Assembly (NCBI RefSeq): GCF_900176365.1
Contig: NZ_FWXY01000009.1
Location: 62,001-126,000, forward strand
Origin: Desulfocicer vacuolatum DSM 3385
Lineage (GTDB): Bacteria > Desulfobacterota > Desulfobacteria > Desulfobacterales > Desulfobacteraceae
Direction of reading: 5' to 3'
DNA length: 64,000 nt
The position numbers and the translations under genes were made by a program. Position 1 is the first letter of the stretch; every line of letters begins with the position of its first letter. Of this stretch, positions 23,716-31,575 are shown piece by piece. The notes under the pieces were generated by a model that saw only the letters and a list, made by a program, of their open reading frames with translations, searched no databases and had not been told where the DNA came from.

Positions 23716-24111
23716 ATGACTGTAAATCATTTTTCAGATGTTTTTACCCCAGAAATCCTGAGAAATCTCTTTCCGGAAGACAGGGCAGATGCTTTTTTTG
23801 AAGCTCTTTACGGCGATGCCGAAGACGGAGCCTATGATATTCGTCTTGCATTTAACAAGGCAGAAGACAACACCCTCTATTTTGATTTTCTCCTGGAGCA
23901 GCGTCCGGGTAAGTGCCTTGCCTGTAACGTAACCCATGGATTGCCCATGGTGTTTGAACGCCATCCCATTATTAATCTCAATGGCCTTGCCAGGGAGATT
24001 GAAGGTGTTCTGCAAATGGAGTGCACCGGATGGAAGGTGGGCACCACCAGGGAAAAAAACCGTCAAATCCATAAACTTCCAGTACAGTTCAGCCTCTCCC
24101 CCCGGAAATAA
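23716..24111 (+). CDS. Conserved hypothetical protein with CxxC motif
   Basis: A 131-residue cytoplasmic protein. The start FSDVFTPEILRNLFPEDRADAFFEALYGDAEDGAYDI and the block RPGKCLACNVTHGLPMVFERHPIINLNG, with a CxxC and a following His, look strongly constrained, and I recall similar proteins in other sulfate reducers; the role is unknown. A third cysteine lies at MECTGW. GGAG lies 11 bases before the ATG. A terminator follows directly. It could be cotranscribed with galE, 125 bases upstream. Confidence 0.8.
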   Translation: MTVNHFSDVFTPEILRNLFPEDRADAFFEALYGDAEDGAYDIRLAFNKAEDNTLYFDFLLEQRPGKCLACNVTHGLPMVFERHPIINLNGLAREIEGVLQMECTGWKVGTTREKNRQIHKLPVQFSLSPRK

Positions 24112-24168: not shown

Positions 24169-24303
24169 AAAATAGTCGGTCAGCACCCCATCATCTTTAC
24201 CTGTTTTGGCCTGCCCACCCGTGGCAATCGTCTGCTACGCAGTCCCAAACAGGCAAATATGGGGCACTGCCCAAACATTTACATTACCAAATCGAATATT
24301 TAC
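24169..24303 (+). repeat. Terminal-inverted-repeat element R2, copy 2
   Basis: Matches 22341-22460 in the same orientation: left end AAAATAGTCGGTC, centre GTCTGCTACGCAGT, right half AAATATGGGGCACTGCCCAAACATTT and right end TCGAATATTTA. It reaches the stop codon of the GlmS-like gene at 24303. Confidence 0.75.
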
Positions 24304-27300
24304 TATTCTGATTGATGATGTTCCATGTAATCGGCAATTTTTTCTGCTGAATCCCCGAACAGATCCTCCATGGGAATGAGATTTAACAAAGTATCATCCC
24401 ATTTTATTTTGTCAGATTCCAGTACGGTGTCTTTTATACGGATAAATTTACCCCCCAGGGCCTTGATGCGTTTAATCAGGGGAACTTCTCTCATATCTTT
24501 AAAGGAGACATTTAAAGAGAGGAGAAACTCAATGGCGCTGGTGCCGGGCAAGGAGGATATCACCGGTATGACCAGTATGCTTTTGCCATCTTTTCTGCCT
24601 TTACCGATGTAGACATTCCCCTCACGGACAATGATGTTTTTGGTGCCTTTGAGCCGGTGGTCTGTTTCTGCCCTGGAAACTTCCGATGTAAGAGTGCCGG
24701 TTTTACGGATCACCTCAATGCGGGTGTCAGGGGTTTCTTCCCCCAGAAGGGTGAGGCCGGATATCCGGTACAGCAGTGCGCCGTTGATTTTTGAAATCAC
24801 CTCCTGGAGATTTCTAATAACCATTACATTTCTGTTGGTCAGCTGGGAGAGTTGAATGTCATGGGTTGTCAACTCCTCAAATATCAATCCTTCAAATGTC
24901 TGGGCAATGCGGGTGGTTCCCACTGTGACGGTTTTGGCCTGGTGCTTGATGGCATCCACCGGTCTTGCCAGGGTGTTGACAGCGGTGTCCATGGTTTTAA
25001 AAAATTGCTCCAGCATGTTGGCTGGGGTTCCTTTTCTGGCAAAATCAATTTCAAAGTCCCCCACCGGCAGCCTGCCGGAAAGATATTTACAAAGAAGCGT
25101 AATATTGGAAGTAACGTCAATGCCCAGGGTTCCAGGAAATCTGTTCTCCCGTCGTCTTTGAGAAAACTCATTGTAAAATTTTGCAATTTTTTCCCGGAAC
25201 CGTTTTTCCAGGATCACCTCGTAGGTGTCGTGCCCCAGGGTTTGATAGTCGTCAATGAGATCTTTGATTTCCCGCTGGTGGGTATAAAAGAAACGGGAAC
25301 CGTCATTGATGGATAACGCGGCATAGTATCCCCAGATATGACCCACCAGTGTGGTGAGCACCGGAGCCAGATGCTCCCTTGTGGCAGGGATTTGAAACAG
25401 GTCATGGGCATAGGGTATAAATCGGTCCTCTCCCTCATCGGCAATGATCACAGTGGTGGCCTTGTGGGCATGGAAGATGGCGGTATCCTTTATGATGTCC
25501 CCCAGTACACTTTCCCGGGTGCCAGCGGCACACACAATGATGAGCGGTTCTGATGAGAGATCAATGTGCTTTTTGTCTTCCACATAATCAGACGAGATGG
25601 TTTTGTAGCACAGCTCACTGAGTTTTATGCGGATTTCATCTGCTGCGGTTTTGTTGGCACCGCTGCCCACTGTGGCCCAGTATTGTTTGGCAATGGAAAC
25701 GCGCTGGGCAGACTTTTTGATGTCAGTCTTCATGGCCAGGATTTTTTTCATTTTTCCGGGCAGTTGATTTAACTCATTGATCTCATCTGTGACCTGTTCC
25801 GGGTCAACGGCTTTGAGCATGGCTGCCATGTGAAGCCCCAGCAGTGCCCCGGCTGTGAGCTGGGCGTAAAAGGCCTTGGTGGAGGCAACGGACATTTCAA
25901 TATCTCTGCCGCTGCTGGTGTAAAGAACCCCGTCGGTTTTAAAGGTCAAATCAGAATCCCGCCGGTTCACAATGGCAAGTGTGGCAGCTCCCCGGGCCTT
26001 GACCATGTCAACGGTGCGGTTGGTGTCTGTTGTGGTCCCTGACTGGCTGATGGCCACCACCAGATAGGATGCCATGGCATTTTTGTCGTCCGGGGTGCCG
26101 GGGATGGCAAATCCGGAAAGCTCCGACGCTTTCATGGCACGGATATCAAGGCCTTTCACAGTCAAAAATGTTTTTAAAATATCGGCACATCCCTGGGCGG
26201 CAATGCCTGCGGTCCCCTGGCCGATGAAGTATATTTTTGTAATGGTGCCCTTTGTAAGGGCTGTTTTGATGTTTTCCGGCACCACGGTGTCATCCAGTGC
26301 GGTGTTGTAAAATCCTGTTTCAGGGTCGGTTTTCCATCGGTTTTGAAGGGTTCTTTCCACAGACAAAGGGGCTTCGGAAATCTCTTTTAGAAAATAGTGG
26401 GGAAAGTGCTGGCGATCAATGTCCCGGGAGGTGATTTCACTGGTCAGGATCTGTTTTTCTGTGATGGTGATGGGGGTGCTGTCATAGGCCAGGGAGGATA
26501 TGCCGGAAAGCCCGCCGTGACTGTTCTGGTCCAGGATGACAATCTGTCCCTTTTTTTCTCCGTTGAGTTTGATGTAATCCTGGGTCTCTTCCACCAGACC
26601 GTAGAGCTCCGATGCGGTTATGTAATGGTCCCGGGCAAGTCCCACAAAAAGGGCCTGGCCGCTGCCCTTCTGGGCCAGGAACAGTTTGCCCGGGGCACGG
26701 TCCGTGTGCATGGAGATGGCATGGGACCCTTTAAAATCATTCACTGCCAGGCGAAAGGCTTCTTCAATGGGATTGCCCTTGTTAAGATAATGTTCAATGT
26801 GCAGGGGAATGATCTTGGTATCTGTGGTGATCTCCTCTGGAAGGGGAGCATACCGGGATTCATAGGCGGACTTTAAGGCAAGGTAGTTGTCAATGTCACC
26901 GTTGAGGCTCACATGGATAACGCCCGGTTTTTCCCGGAGCGGGTCTGTGGTCTGGTTGTCAACAGGATGGCAGTTGGGTTGACCGATGCTTCCCACCGAG
27001 GCCCAGCGGGTGTGGGCAGATATGCTGAAAGAAGCGGTGGGGCAGGAAAGAAATCGTTGGAGAATCAGATCATTTTTTATCTGGGTTCGAAGGTAGGTGA
27101 CGTTGTCGCCAAGGGCACCGATGACAGCGGCAAATTTATACACAAAGGCCATGCAGACCTGGGAGTCCCCACCCTTTTCCGGGAAATTGTGAATGGTGAT
27201 GCAGTTGTTTGTCAGAACGGTTTTTCCGGTGCGCTGTTTTAATTGTTCCCCCAGACCGGCGGTGTCAAGCTCCCGGCAGAAGGTGTCAAATGTTTGCCGG

Positions 27301-28013
27301 GGAAGGGTGGCCAAAAGGGATATTCCGGCAGAATCCCTTCCCCTGACCTCCAGGCGGTCAATGCTGTTGAGAATGGCATTGATGGTTTTAAACCGTACCA
27401 GCTCCTCCCGGGGGCACTTGCCGGAGGGGGCGTGGCGCATATTTTCTATTTTTAAGAGATTTTTTAAAATTTCTTCCTGGATACACCAGTGGGCATCCTG
27501 ACAGGCGTCCATGCGTTTCCGGGCCGTTTCAAATTCCCGGGCATCCAGAAGGGCCATGCGCTGGAAAAGTTGCTCTTTTTCCGCAGTGATGAGGGCATCG
27601 AGGCGGGTGCTGATCTCAGAAAGCTGCTGCTGTTTTTCCGGTGTGTTGAAAATATCTGAAAAAGGAGCATTTTCCTTTAATGCCCTTGCCGTTTCTACAA
27701 CATCGTCCATGTGCCCGCTACCCCCCAGATAGCAACTGAGTACAGATCTGTTCTGGTCAAGGCAGATAGAAAGCAGGTTGGCCTCCATGGTGTTCAGTTT
27801 GTTTTCCAGGGTATTGAGATCCATGGCTGTGGATTTTTTTTTGCCCTGGAATGCCACCAGGGCCGCAATGCCGCAGGAAAACGCATTGGTATATTGGGGA
27901 AATACGACAAGTGTATTTTCCGCTGCCCTGTGGGGGCAGGTGGCAAATTCAACGTGAACACTTAACATTTTTCGGGTGTGGCTGTTGAGTTTATTGAGAA
28001 GGGATTTGATCAT
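24303..28013 (-). CDS. Double-length GlmS-like protein (glutaminase plus SIS domains)
   Basis: A 1236-residue relative of glutamine-fructose-6-phosphate aminotransferase, about twice GlmS's 600-610. The glutaminase part has the nucleophile motif CGI, but at Cys47 rather than directly after Met1, then a helical insert of about 175 residues before RGRDSAG (224-230), HTRWASVGS, VSLNGDIDNYLAL and TDTKIIPLH. Two SIS domains follow: IGQGTAGIAAQG with ISQSGTTTDTNR and DIEMSVASTKAFYAQL, then VGSGANKTAADEIRIKLSELCYKTI. About 300 residues of unrecognised sequence close the protein. Glutamine-site residues are kept, so the enzyme would need its first 46 residues removed. AAAAGGAT supports the start. The last gene of the leftward unit, 93 bases after the transpeptidase. 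Role in amino-sugar supply for the envelope is inferred. Confidence 0.85.
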   Translation of the reverse strand: MIKSLLNKLNSHTRKMLSVHVEFATCPHRAAENTLVVFPQYTNAFSCGIAALVAFQGKKKSTAMDLNTLENKLNTMEANLLSICLDQNRSVLSCYLGGSGHMDDVVETARALKENAPFSDIFNTPEKQQQLSEISTRLDALITAEKEQLFQRMALLDAREFETARKRMDACQDAHWCIQEEILKNLLKIENMRHAPSGKCPREELVRFKTINAILNSIDRLEVRGRDSAGISLLATLPRQTFDTFCRELDTAGLGEQLKQRTGKTVLTNNCITIHNFPEKGGDSQVCMAFVYKFAAVIGALGDNVTYLRTQIKNDLILQRFLSCPTASFSISAHTRWASVGSIGQPNCHPVDNQTTDPLREKPGVIHVSLNGDIDNYLALKSAYESRYAPLPEEITTDTKIIPLHIEHYLNKGNPIEEAFRLAVNDFKGSHAISMHTDRAPGKLFLAQKGSGQALFVGLARDHYITASELYGLVEETQDYIKLNGEKKGQIVILDQNSHGGLSGISSLAYDSTPITITEKQILTSEITSRDIDRQHFPHYFLKEISEAPLSVERTLQNRWKTDPETGFYNTALDDTVVPENIKTALTKGTITKIYFIGQGTAGIAAQGCADILKTFLTVKGLDIRAMKASELSGFAIPGTPDDKNAMASYLVVAISQSGTTTDTNRTVDMVKARGAATLAIVNRRDSDLTFKTDGVLYTSSGRDIEMSVASTKAFYAQLTAGALLGLHMAAMLKAVDPEQVTDEINELNQLPGKMKKILAMKTDIKKSAQRVSIAKQYWATVGSGANKTAADEIRIKLSELCYKTISSDYVEDKKHIDLSSEPLIIVCAAGTRESVLGDIIKDTAIFHAHKATTVIIADEGEDRFIPYAHDLFQIPATREHLAPVLTTLVGHIWGYYAALSINDGSRFFYTHQREIKDLIDDYQTLGHDTYEVILEKRFREKIAKFYNEFSQRRRENRFPGTLGIDVTSNITLLCKYLSGRLPVGDFEIDFARKGTPANMLEQFFKTMDTAVNTLARPVDAIKHQAKTVTVGTTRIAQTFEGLIFEELTTHDIQLSQLTNRNVMVIRNLQEVISKINGALLYRISGLTLLGEETPDTRIEVIRKTGTLTSEVSRAETDHRLKGTKNIIVREGNVYIGKGRKDGKSILVIPVISSLPGTSAIEFLLSLNVSFKDMREVPLIKRIKALGGKFIRIKDTVLESDKIKWDDTLLNLIPMEDLFGDSAEKIADYMEHHQSE

Positions 28014-28106
28014 GGTCTGTATCCTTTTTAAGAAAAAGATAAAATGATGCTTAATTTTCAGTTTGTCAGATCTTGATGCCCTGCCGGACAGGTGTGCCTG
28101 TGGCAG

Positions 28107-29474
28107 TTATTTGGAGCTGGATGCCGGAAAACGGCTGAAATACGCCTTAAAAATTTTTCTGGCAAAGGTGCCAGCCCGGGTGCCGATGTATTCACCGTGG
28201 CCCACAAGGATGGAGACTGCTATTTGATGTTTTTCCTTGTTTTTTGCAAATCCTGTGAACCAGTCCAGTTTAACTGTGTGATCTTTGTTGTAAAGGGAGC
28301 CTGTTTTTCCTCCCATGGTTAACCGGGCAAGGACCTTATCTTTGCGATATTTTCGAAACGCTTTTTTTGCCGTTCCTGTGGTAATGGTGTGGGTCATCAT
28401 TTTCACCACAGTGGCTGCTGTTTTTGGGGAGATGGCCCGGGGGCCCTGGCTGTGATTTTTTTTGTAAAGGATTTTTCCCCGGTCATTGGTGACGGTTTCC
28501 ACAAGATAGGGGGTGGGGATATTGCCGTGGTTGAGCAGGGTGGCTGTGATCATGGCCCCGAACAGGGGGGAAATGGTGGTGGTTTTATTGAATCCGCTTG
28601 CCACCTCTGCCCATTGATAGGGGGTGTCCGTTACCTTAATAGAACCTGAAAGCCCCTTGAAATCAGCATCCAGGGGCAGGTTAAACCCGAATAAACCGGC
28701 ATATTTTTTTAATTGATCCGCCTTTAGCTCGTGGCTTCCCAGCTTTCCGAACACGGGGTTGACGGACTGGGAAAAAGCTTTTTCCAGGGTGGTGCGGGAG
28801 GTGTATTTGTTTTTAACTTTTTTTAACTGACGTTTGTACAGGGTGTACTTTCCACCGTTAAAGAAAAGGGGGGTGTCCGGCCCCATGAGATTTTGTTCCA
28901 GCACCGCTGCTGCGGTGATGATTTTAAAAATACTGGCTGCGGGGTATTCCTTGAAAATGGCGGGGTTCATTCCGGGAGAAGCTGCATCAAATCCGGCCAT
29001 GGCAAGCAGTTGTCCGGTATCCGGGACCATGACCACCAGGGCAATGATTTCCGGTTTTGCCCGGGTTAATGTTTTTAAATGGCTGATTTCATTGAGCAAA
29101 AATTGCTGCAAATAAGGGTTGAGACCTGTTTCAAGTGTCAGGGAATCCCCCTCCTTTAAGACAGTGACATGCCCGGAGGCAGGGTTGTCCAAAAGCGATG
29201 GCGGTAAAAGAGAGATCACCTGTTCCCGGGTGAGCGGTGTTTCTGTCTTTTCTTGACCGGCATCTTCCAGGGATGGGGAGGGTGTAAAAAAAACGACAAA
29301 TTCCGTTAATTTTCCACGGATTTCCGGAAAAAAATTCACCATTGCCCATGCGGCAACTGCCATGACAACAACGGCCAGAGCCATGGCGCAAAAAGGGAAC
29401 AACCGCTTTTTTTTGAAACGGTTGTCCCGGGGTTGAAATTTTTGCCATGGATTTGAGGGATCAGAAGGGTACAA
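28107..29474 (-). CDS. Penicillin-binding-protein-type transpeptidase
   Basis: A 455-residue membrane-anchored serine DD-transpeptidase that crosslinks peptidoglycan in the periplasm. One N-terminal membrane segment (residues about 26-48) after a basic stretch, a short linker, then the catalytic domain with all three motifs: S181-x-x-K184 (SIFK), S237-V-N239, and K390-T-G. It lacks the long N-terminal pedestal of FtsI/PbpA, so it is a minimal class-B-like enzyme. It starts 13 bases after metG and precedes the GlmS-like gene, placing cell-wall crosslinking next to a putative amino-sugar enzyme. Confidence 0.9.
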   Translation of the reverse strand: MYPSDPSNPWQKFQPRDNRFKKKRLFPFCAMALAVVVMAVAAWAMVNFFPEIRGKLTEFVVFFTPSPSLEDAGQEKTETPLTREQVISLLPPSLLDNPASGHVTVLKEGDSLTLETGLNPYLQQFLLNEISHLKTLTRAKPEIIALVVMVPDTGQLLAMAGFDAASPGMNPAIFKEYPAASIFKIITAAAVLEQNLMGPDTPLFFNGGKYTLYKRQLKKVKNKYTSRTTLEKAFSQSVNPVFGKLGSHELKADQLKKYAGLFGFNLPLDADFKGLSGSIKVTDTPYQWAEVASGFNKTTTISPLFGAMITATLLNHGNIPTPYLVETVTNDRGKILYKKNHSQGPRAISPKTAATVVKMMTHTITTGTAKKAFRKYRKDKVLARLTMGGKTGSLYNKDHTVKLDWFTGFAKNKEKHQIAVSILVGHGEYIGTRAGTFARKIFKAYFSRFPASSSK

Positions 29475-29487
29475 ATCAGACTCCCGG

Positions 29488-31425
29488 TTATTTTACAGGA
29501 AGTCCGGGGGTAACAGATTGGTCAAATCCCGCCAGAAAAAGTTGTTTTTTGCCGTTGGCCGCCACAATCATTCCCTGGGAAAGTTCCCCCATGAGTTTGG
29601 CAGGTTTTAAATTGGCCACCACCACCACCTGTTTGCCGATGAGGGTCTCCGGTTCATAACTTTTGGCAATTCCGGCAATGATTTGCCGGGCTTCCTGACC
29701 CAGGTTCACTTGAAGTTTCAGCAGCTTATTTGATTTTTCAATTTTTTCTGCAGCCACAATGGTTCCCGTGCGAAGATCCAGGCGGGAAAATTCCTCAAAG
29801 GTGATTTCCGGCTTCAGATTTTTTAACCCCTTTGGGGGTTTGTTTGCCACTGGGGCTTTTTTTTCCGGTTTTTCAACGTCCACCCGGGGAAAGAGCATGG
29901 GGGGCTTTTGGGTGGGCATCCCCGGTTTCATGAAAGGCCATTTTTTGAGTTCATCCATGGTGTAAAAATCATTGGCATCTGTTTTTTCAAGACCCAGAAC
30001 CGCCAGCATTGTGCCGGCTGTTTCGGGCATGACAGGGTGGATGAGGCAGGCAATGAGGCGAAGGCTCTCCACCATATTGGTGATGACAACGGCAAGCTCA
30101 TCTGCGGCTGCTTCATCTTTGGCCAGGGTCCAGGGGGCCGTGGTGTCAATGTATTTATTTAACGTGCTGATAAATTCCCATACTGCTGTGAGGGCTTTAT
30201 GAAATTCAGTGTTGTCCATGGCCTTTATGTAGGCTTCAATGGCTTGGTTCGCCGCTGTTTTCAGGGAAAGTTCTTTTTGGGCCTCCAGGGTGGAATCGGT
30301 TTTCGGTATCACCCCTTTGAAGTAACGGTGGAGCATGGAGAGGACCCGGGAAAAGAGATTTCCAAGGTCATTGGCAAGATCTGAATTGATGCGCTGGACA
30401 ATGGCATCTTCGGTGAAATTGGCATCCAGGCCAAACACCATTTCTCTCATGAGAAAATATCGAAAGGGGTCCACGCCATAGGTGTCGGTGACCTCCACTG
30501 GATCGGTGACATTTCCGATACTTTTGGACATTTTGCTGCCACTGACGTTCCAGAATCCATGGACGTTGAGGCTCTGGTAGCGCTCAATGCCAGCGGCCTT
30601 TAGCATGGTGGGCCAGTATATTCCATGGGGTTTGATGATATCTTTTGCCACAAAGTGCCGGGTGTGGGGCCAGAATTGCGAATATAGATCTCCGCCGGGA
30701 TATCCCAGTGCTGAAATATAGTTGGTCAGGGCATCAAACCACACATAGGTGACATAGTTGTCATCAAAGGGAAGGTCTATGCCCCAGGTGAGGCGGGATT
30801 TGGGCCGGGAGATACAAAGATCCTCCAGGGGTTCCTTTAAAAAGGAGAGCACTTCATTGCGGTAGCGTTCCGGACGGATAAAGTCGGGATTGGTTTTAAT
30901 GTGATCAATGAGCCAGTCCTGGTATTTTGACATGGCAAAAAAGTAGTTGGACTCTTTGATTTTGCTGGGCTCTGTGCCGTGGTCCGGGCATTTACCGTCC
31001 ACAAGCTCCCGCTCCTGGTAAAATCGTTCACACCCATAGCAGTAAATCCCCTCATATTCACTGAAATAGATATCTCCACTGTCATGGATTTTTGTTAAAA
31101 GGGATTGAACCACCTTGATGTGTTCCGGGTGTGTGGTGCGGATAAAATGGTCATTGCTGATATTAAGCCGGGGCCACAGTCCCTGGAAAAGGCCACTGAT
31201 ATTATCCACAAAGGCCTTGGGGGTGATGTTTTGCTGTTCGGCTGCCTGCACAATCTTGTCCCCGTGCTCGTCTGTGCCGGTGAGAAAGTAGGTGGGATGT
31301 CCACACATGCGGCTGTAGCGTGCTGCCACATCTGTTGTGATGGTTGTGTAGGCATGTCCCAGGTGGGGTTTGGCATTGACATAATATATGGGGGTGGTGA
31401 AAAAACGGGGGGTATCAGTTTTCAT
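29488..31425 (-). CDS. metG: Methionyl-tRNA synthetase
   Basis: Charges tRNA-Met. 645 residues in the normal order: class I catalytic fold with HLGHAY (HIGH) near residue 19, a zinc knuckle region (CYGCERFY...GKCPDHG), KMSKSIGN, the helical anticodon-binding domain, and a C-terminal EMAP/Trbp111-like tRNA-binding domain (FSRLDLRTGTIVAAEKIEKSNKLLKLQVNLG) that dimerises the enzyme. The start at 31425 has AAGGAA 12 bases upstream; the in-frame extension to 31524 reads into an R1 repeat and is not conserved-looking. Downstream of ricT, upstream of the transpeptidase gene. Confidence 0.97.
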   Translation of the reverse strand: MKTDTPRFFTTPIYYVNAKPHLGHAYTTITTDVAARYSRMCGHPTYFLTGTDEHGDKIVQAAEQQNITPKAFVDNISGLFQGLWPRLNISNDHFIRTTHPEHIKVVQSLLTKIHDSGDIYFSEYEGIYCYGCERFYQERELVDGKCPDHGTEPSKIKESNYFFAMSKYQDWLIDHIKTNPDFIRPERYRNEVLSFLKEPLEDLCISRPKSRLTWGIDLPFDDNYVTYVWFDALTNYISALGYPGGDLYSQFWPHTRHFVAKDIIKPHGIYWPTMLKAAGIERYQSLNVHGFWNVSGSKMSKSIGNVTDPVEVTDTYGVDPFRYFLMREMVFGLDANFTEDAIVQRINSDLANDLGNLFSRVLSMLHRYFKGVIPKTDSTLEAQKELSLKTAANQAIEAYIKAMDNTEFHKALTAVWEFISTLNKYIDTTAPWTLAKDEAAADELAVVITNMVESLRLIACLIHPVMPETAGTMLAVLGLEKTDANDFYTMDELKKWPFMKPGMPTQKPPMLFPRVDVEKPEKKAPVANKPPKGLKNLKPEITFEEFSRLDLRTGTIVAAEKIEKSNKLLKLQVNLGQEARQIIAGIAKSYEPETLIGKQVVVVANLKPAKLMGELSQGMIVAANGKKQLFLAGFDQSVTPGLPVK

Positions 31426-31497
31426 TTTATCTTTAGTTTCCTTGCATATGCATGCATTTTTCCATGAAAATTTAATGTCCAGATGTCTTAAGAGAGC

Positions 31498-31575
31498 CCG
31501 CAGATATCGGGACGGCATTTCCAAGCGTTGTTGCGGGTAAAACCCGGAATATCAGACTTTGCCCATGATTGTTAT
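31498..31575 (-). repeat. Dispersed palindromic repeat R1 at ricT stop codon
   Basis: Diverged copy: CCGCAGATATCGGGACGGCATTTCCAAGCG, TTGTTGCGGGTAAAACCCGG and GACTTTGCCCATGATTGTTAT. Read with the gene direction it begins at the ricT stop codon, as the copy after eno does. Confidence 0.65.

Follow-up and report, generated by a model that had tools for sequence, protein, structure and literature searches.

A long-form GlmS of Desulfocicer vacuolatum with a proposed propeptide before its catalytic cysteine

Introduction

GlmS is the first enzyme of amino-sugar (cell-wall) synthesis, and both of its ends lie at active sites: the N-terminal cysteine is the nucleophile, and the C-terminal tail (C-tail) contributes the catalytic lysine and closes off the ammonia channel. 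The stretch of 64,000 nucleotides of the Desulfocicer vacuolatum DSM 3385 genome analysed here (contig NZ_FWXY01000009.1, positions 62,001 to 126,000; hereafter the window) encodes a GlmS-like protein of 1236 residues in which the equivalent cysteine is residue 47. Since class II glutaminases require a free N-terminal cysteine (PMC7948480), the locus raises the question of how, or whether, such a protein can work. The gene is very probably the organism's working GlmS, enlarged and made as a precursor that would be cut before Cys47, and the product should catalyse the GlmS reaction, forming glucosamine-6-phosphate from fructose-6-phosphate and glutamine. No description of a GlmS with a propeptide, an internal C-tail or this long form was found in the literature, most subscription journals being outside the scope of the search.

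A GlmS of double length

A single open frame with an ATG start fills positions 28013 to 24303 on the minus strand, which bears out the first-pass annotation of a GlmS-like protein with the motif CGI at residues 47-49 and supplies the strand, previously unstated. The gene and its parts are the following, with equivalents in Escherichia coli GlmS in brackets.

24303..28013, minus strand: long-form GlmS gene, 1236 amino acids, ATG at 28013 (open reading frame and family searches)
28022..28026, minus strand: AAGGA, probable ribosome-binding site, 8 nucleotides before the ATG (sequence)
27876..28013, minus strand: N-terminal extension, residues 1-46, proposed propeptide, with a fixed-spacing motif ending FPxxxNxLx before the cysteine (alignment)
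27873..27875, minus strand: Cys47, nucleophile (Cys1) (alignment)
27399..27842, minus strand: helical insert of the glutaminase domain, residues ~58-205, placed after beta strand 1 and ahead of helix 1 (alignment and model)
27324..27344, minus strand: RGRDSAG, residues 224-230 (R26-G32) (alignment)
27003..27014, minus strand: HTRW, residues 334-337 (H71-W74; Q-loop with R73 and W74) (alignment)
26895..26903, minus strand: NGD, residues 371-373 (N98 G99) (alignment)
26817..26825, minus strand: TDT, residues 397-399 (D398 is D123) (alignment)
25794..26276, minus strand: first SIS domain, residues ~580-740, with SQSGTT and VASTKAF (family searches and alignment)
25314..25706, minus strand: second SIS domain, residues ~770-900, with E793, K797, E800 and H816 (E481, K485, E488 and H504, respectively) (searches and alignment)
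24966..25310, minus strand: second helical insert, ~115 residues, ~902-1016, between the second SIS domain and the C-tail (model)
24918..24947, minus strand: internal C-tail KHQAKTVTVG, residues 1023-1032, with K1027 (K603) (alignment)
24306..24911, minus strand: C-terminal alpha/beta domain, residues ~1035-1236, outside known families (model and searches)

The glutaminase and the two SIS domains expected of GlmS/GFAT are both present, the latter as had been proposed from the sequence at first sight, and were recovered with Pfam (SIS found, GATase_6/7 marginal), with the NCBIfam GlmS models (residues 330-901 at 243-258 bits, with cut-offs of 381-418) and in a PDB search, in which E. coli GlmS and human GFAT were the closest solved structures. 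The fold predicted for the precursor (AlphaFold model) is GlmS-like and matches the glutaminase of GlmS/GFAT. All four glutamine-binding motifs of the first-pass annotation (RGRDSAG, HTRW, NGD and TDT) lie in place.

Conservation of the active sites was followed in 126 aligned long-form rows, which are related to one another, include some genes fetched twice and come in many cases from metagenome assemblies. Every one of these rows keeps the equivalents of the E. coli glutamine-site residues C1, R26, G27, D29, S30, H71, R73 and W74, those of H86, N98, G99, D123, T302, Q348, S349, T352 and S401, the isomerase residues E481, K485, E488 and H504, and the C-tail lysine K603. The serine that follows T302 (S303) is alanine in all long-form rows, an alanine also present in a canonical GlmS of a related genome (L088), and at the S347 position Ser and Thr both occur. 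The active sites are conserved in the same way in L147-L151, five divergent members that share ~33% identity with the window protein. A single genome scan returned 80 homologues, at least 77 of which share the architecture, and Cys47-Gly48, the counterpart of Cys1-Gly2 in E. coli GlmS, is invariant across the homologue alignments A1 and A3, so the architecture is not due to chance.

In comparison with known GlmS/GFAT (TIGR01135, NF001484; E. coli GlmS, 608 amino acids, PDB 2j6h), the N-terminal nucleophile (Ntn) glutaminase and two SIS domains occur in the same order, and all tested active-site residues and the C-tail lysine are common to both. However, the long form is twice as long as the E. 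coli enzyme and has the 46-residue extension, helical inserts of ~150 and ~115 residues, and an internal C-tail followed by a domain of ~205 residues, whereas the E. coli tail is the C-terminus itself. Judged by its sequence and proposed mechanism the protein is a GlmS; judged by its architecture it is a distinct subfamily that falls below current model cut-offs.

The extension before the cysteine

An extension precedes the cysteine in 109 of the 126 rows, and in these, as in the window, the codon before the cysteine is not ATG, GTG or TTG. The extension follows the consensus [IV][YF]xG[KR]...[SA][IL][VI][FL]FPxxxNxLx|C. Of the 109 rows, 106 have P at -8, 96 have F at -9 and 93 have G at -23, and the length from -27 to the cysteine is constant in the great majority. 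Over 22 close pairs, the ratio of non-synonymous to synonymous differences (pN/pS) is 0.33 in the extension, 0.43 in the insert and 0.15 in the rest of the protein; the value for the extension indicates that it is translated and under selection. Translation from the ATG at 28013 is further supported by the AAGGA 8 nucleotides upstream.

The remaining 17 rows lack an extension and have a frame beginning exactly Met-Cys (GTG-Cys in one). A cysteine encoded directly behind the initiator Met, as in canonical GlmS, is thus found in these 17 relatives and not in the window protein; a start codon directly before the cysteine in all relatives, which would have argued against processing, is not what the other 109 show. 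All divergent outgroup members are among these 17. On a quick LG+G4 tree, built with the extension left out and rooted on canonical GlmS, parsimony requires five changes, with absence ancestral, one gain and four losses (L160; L090/L092; L113; and a clade with Desulfonema), and after every loss the gene starts precisely Met-Cys. Because the tree is a quick one with a long root branch, confidence is lower in the direction of the gain than in how many changes are needed. Taken together, the Met-Cys relatives and the conserved extension elsewhere suggest that a free N-terminal Cys is reached by two routes; the simplest account would be a mature enzyme with such a cysteine in all members, exposed by Met removal in one set and by cleavage of the extension in the other.

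Precedents among class II glutaminases

In PurF both routes are known within one family, with propeptide cleavage in Bacillus subtilis and Met removal in E. coli (PMC3261824). PurF of the B. subtilis type is likewise a class II glutaminase whose cysteine is exposed by removal of an N-terminal peptide, but its synthase domain differs, and PurF propeptides are short, in contrast to the ~46 residues with a conserved motif of long-form GlmS. The large subunit of glutamate synthase, GltB, has a propeptide of about 36-42 residues before its catalytic Cys; its synthase domains, too, are different. The translated, conserved pre-Cys sequence of such processed glutaminases is also a trait of long-form GlmS. 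In D. vacuolatum itself the PurF (L083, G000:C34:113904-114596) carries a short pre-Cys peptide, MESERPKDE|C, which makes it probable that propeptide removal already serves to mature one class II glutaminase in this host; its AsnB-like proteins begin Met-Cys. Eukaryotic GFAT is likewise a GlmS with added sequence, in its case a regulatory insert in the glutaminase/interdomain region (PMC7948480). In human GFAT1/2 (PDB 6r4e) this insert has ~46 residues and lies elsewhere in the domain than the long-form inserts; the Cys of human GFAT is right behind Met and its C-tail is free, whereas long-form GlmS has both ends extended.

Removal of the extension and catalysis

The protein would be synthesised as a precursor, from which the extension of ~46 residues would be removed just before Cys47, freeing the alpha-amino group. 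Once the chain has folded, the peptide bond before the Cys would be cleaved by that residue or its surroundings, or by a peptidase; we infer self-cleavage (autocatalysis), most likely through intramolecular attack by the Ntn domain itself. The freed amino group would serve as general base for glutamine hydrolysis at the N-terminal Cys, and the Trp337 loop and the C-tail would line the channel through which the ammonia reaches the isomerase site (E793, K797, E800, H816 and the lysine K1027 of the C-tail), to be joined there to fructose-6-phosphate. The C-terminal domain and the helical inserts may regulate the enzyme or serve its assembly.

That a separate host peptidase, and not the enzyme itself, makes the cut is rather unlikely. 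The conserved 27-residue motif with its fixed spacing could be a recognition site; however, C, S, N, G and F all occur at position -1, so a sequence-specific protease site is not evident, and no peptidase is conserved among the neighbours examined (holB, ricT, metG, the penicillin-binding protein, pyrG and eno). In known cases, processing in the Ntn glutaminase superfamily is usually autocatalytic.

Several points weigh against a self-cleaving, working GlmS. The variable residue -1 is one of them. The score of the long form, 243 bits, does not reach the TIGR01135 equivalog cut-off of 418 bits, and the 126 rows share kinship and some duplicate fetches of one gene. The precursor model has a predicted local distance difference test (pLDDT) below 50 at residues 45-57 and so neither supports nor refutes self-cleavage, the low values of the Cys strand with the extension attached being compatible with a precursor state. 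Finally, the evidence on cleavage, on its site and on activity is indirect throughout.

Inserts, internal C-tail and C-terminal domain

The insert after the cysteine, which had been put at about 175 residues, is predicted to be almost entirely helical (pLDDT mostly >90), as the first reading had it, but is shorter, at ~150 residues (58-205). In the closest relative of the window gene (L004:5853-9942, the same gene as L109) this insert holds ~78 extra residues, and the distance from the Cys to RGRDSAG is 255 residues in place of ~177. The region towards the C-terminus, described at first as 300 residues of unknown nature, is indeed long; it resolves into three parts, namely the second insert, the GlmS C-tail and the domain of ~205 residues. 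Residues 1022-1032 (IKHQAKTVTVG) align with RNLAKSVTVE at the very end of E. coli GlmS, and with RNLAKTVTVG at that of the canonical GlmS of a related genome, in a MAFFT alignment that included E. coli GlmS and L088. An hhalign comparison of A3 with E. coli GlmS aligned both halves and left the tail unaligned.

The tail is followed by 204 residues, which fold as a confidently predicted alpha/beta domain in the structure model. This domain matches no Pfam family and no PDB sequence (best E 0.28), and none of the plasmid records searched encodes it. Foldseek returned solely non-significant PAS/LOV/Cache-like matches (best E 0.054), and these weak PAS/LOV-like similarities of the modelled fold are no more than a hint of sensing. 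A tentative proposal, which we hold to be possible and somewhat less than even, is that the long form is a GlmS zymogen: an inactive precursor that would cut itself before the Cys, perhaps upon assembly, with its C-tail tethered to a controlling, sensor-like domain.

Replacement of canonical GlmS

No other protein of the D. vacuolatum genome (98% complete) matches both halves of GlmS. The remaining TIGR01135 matches, namely PurF, a pair of AsnB-like proteins and one small match to SIS, span the glutaminase alone or a piece of SIS. A normal glmS, for which the rest of the genome was searched, is absent, leaving the long form as the sole GlmS-like gene. GlmM is present. The best GlmU match (G000:C63:5211-5933, L168) is a 259-amino-acid frame with the uridylyltransferase half alone (positions 3-240), and the acetyltransferase half seems to be separate or replaced.

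In a sample of 117 genomes from a class-level draw, all of one order, the long form occurs alone in 112, counting one partial match (G037), and canonical GlmS of ~609 amino acids occurs alone in two (G014 and G101, with L088 and L089). These two belong to one family, in which the long form is carried by the other members, so that one GlmS form has apparently been replaced by the other. Three near-complete genomes (G006, G023 and G102) have neither form, for which salvage, divergence or an assembly gap may be the cause. Across a phylum sample of 395 genomes, in which the long form was scored by its C-terminal domain and canonical GlmS by a score above the cut-off, 50 genomes have the long form and 311 the canonical one, with an overlap of 1 (Fisher p = 1.9e-38, uncorrected for relatedness). 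The overlap is G295 (L163), the sole sampled genome with both; G105 carries two long-form copies (G105:C84 and G105:C45). The long form has taken over from canonical GlmS in Desulfobacterales and in some other families of the phylum. The double-length architecture, rightly recognised as new at the outset, is hence not a one-off of this genome.

Genomic neighbourhood

Upstream of the gene lie the following conserved neighbours.

28107..29474, minus strand: penicillin-binding-protein transpeptidase gene, in a conserved holB-ricT-metG-PBP-glmS cluster (PBP, penicillin-binding protein; family search and neighbourhood comparison)
29488..31524, minus strand: metG (neighbourhood comparison)

The holB-ricT-metG-PBP-glmS cluster is conserved, often with pyrG and eno nearby, and the conserved neighbours of long-form glmS are housekeeping genes. 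Neither a glmS ribozyme nor any other Rfam element was found near the gene, two tRNAs being the sole Rfam matches in the window. A plus-strand reading frame of 131 amino acids (23716-24111), which converges with glmS, matches no Pfam or NCBIfam family.

Other explanations

Four further readings were rejected on the evidence against each. It is improbable that the extension is kept and the glutaminase inactive, with the enzyme using free ammonia. The Cys is internal as encoded, in a class of enzymes that needs it free (PMC7948480), but every glutamine-site residue examined, including the ammonia-channel Trp, is invariant in the 126 rows, where a dead site should drift, and the extension-free relatives begin exactly Met-Cys in four independent lineages. 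Where the first-pass annotation had left self-processing and a dead glutaminase side by side, processing is now well supported, if indirectly, by the 17 Met-Cys frames and the 109 conserved extensions, and a dead site is made unlikely by that invariance.

Quite improbable, too, is a paralogue that makes a special amino sugar and is distinct from the normal GlmS, an idea raised early on from the adjoining transpeptidase gene and compatible with the large extra domains. Against it, the long form is the only GlmS of the genome and excludes the canonical form across the phylum, the isomerase residues are unchanged save for the S303 to Ala change shared with canonical L088, GlmM is present, and the neighbours are of the housekeeping kind.

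A true start codon directly before Cys47, and hence no propeptide, is very hard to credit: 17 relatives do begin so, but the preceding codon of the extended genes is no start codon, and both the pN/pS of the extension and the AAGGA point to the ATG at 28013. A lipoprotein signal peptide, with Cys47 lipidated after a signal-peptidase II cut, would place the cut immediately before the conserved Cys and can be dismissed, since a lipobox is missing (with the conserved Leu at -2 rather than -3, and -1 often bulky), the hydrophobic core does not exceed ~5 residues where bacterial lipoproteins have a signal core, the Met-Cys relatives have no signal at all and the substrates are cytosolic.

Implications

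Both of the ends that GlmS uses at its active sites are extended in the long form, which has taken the place of the normal enzyme across an order of sulfate-reducing bacteria. The pre-Cys extension, gained once and lost about four times, makes the family a natural experiment in ways of obtaining a free N-terminal nucleophile. Its recognition also corrects the reading of genomes that a standard family cut-off would score as GlmS-free.

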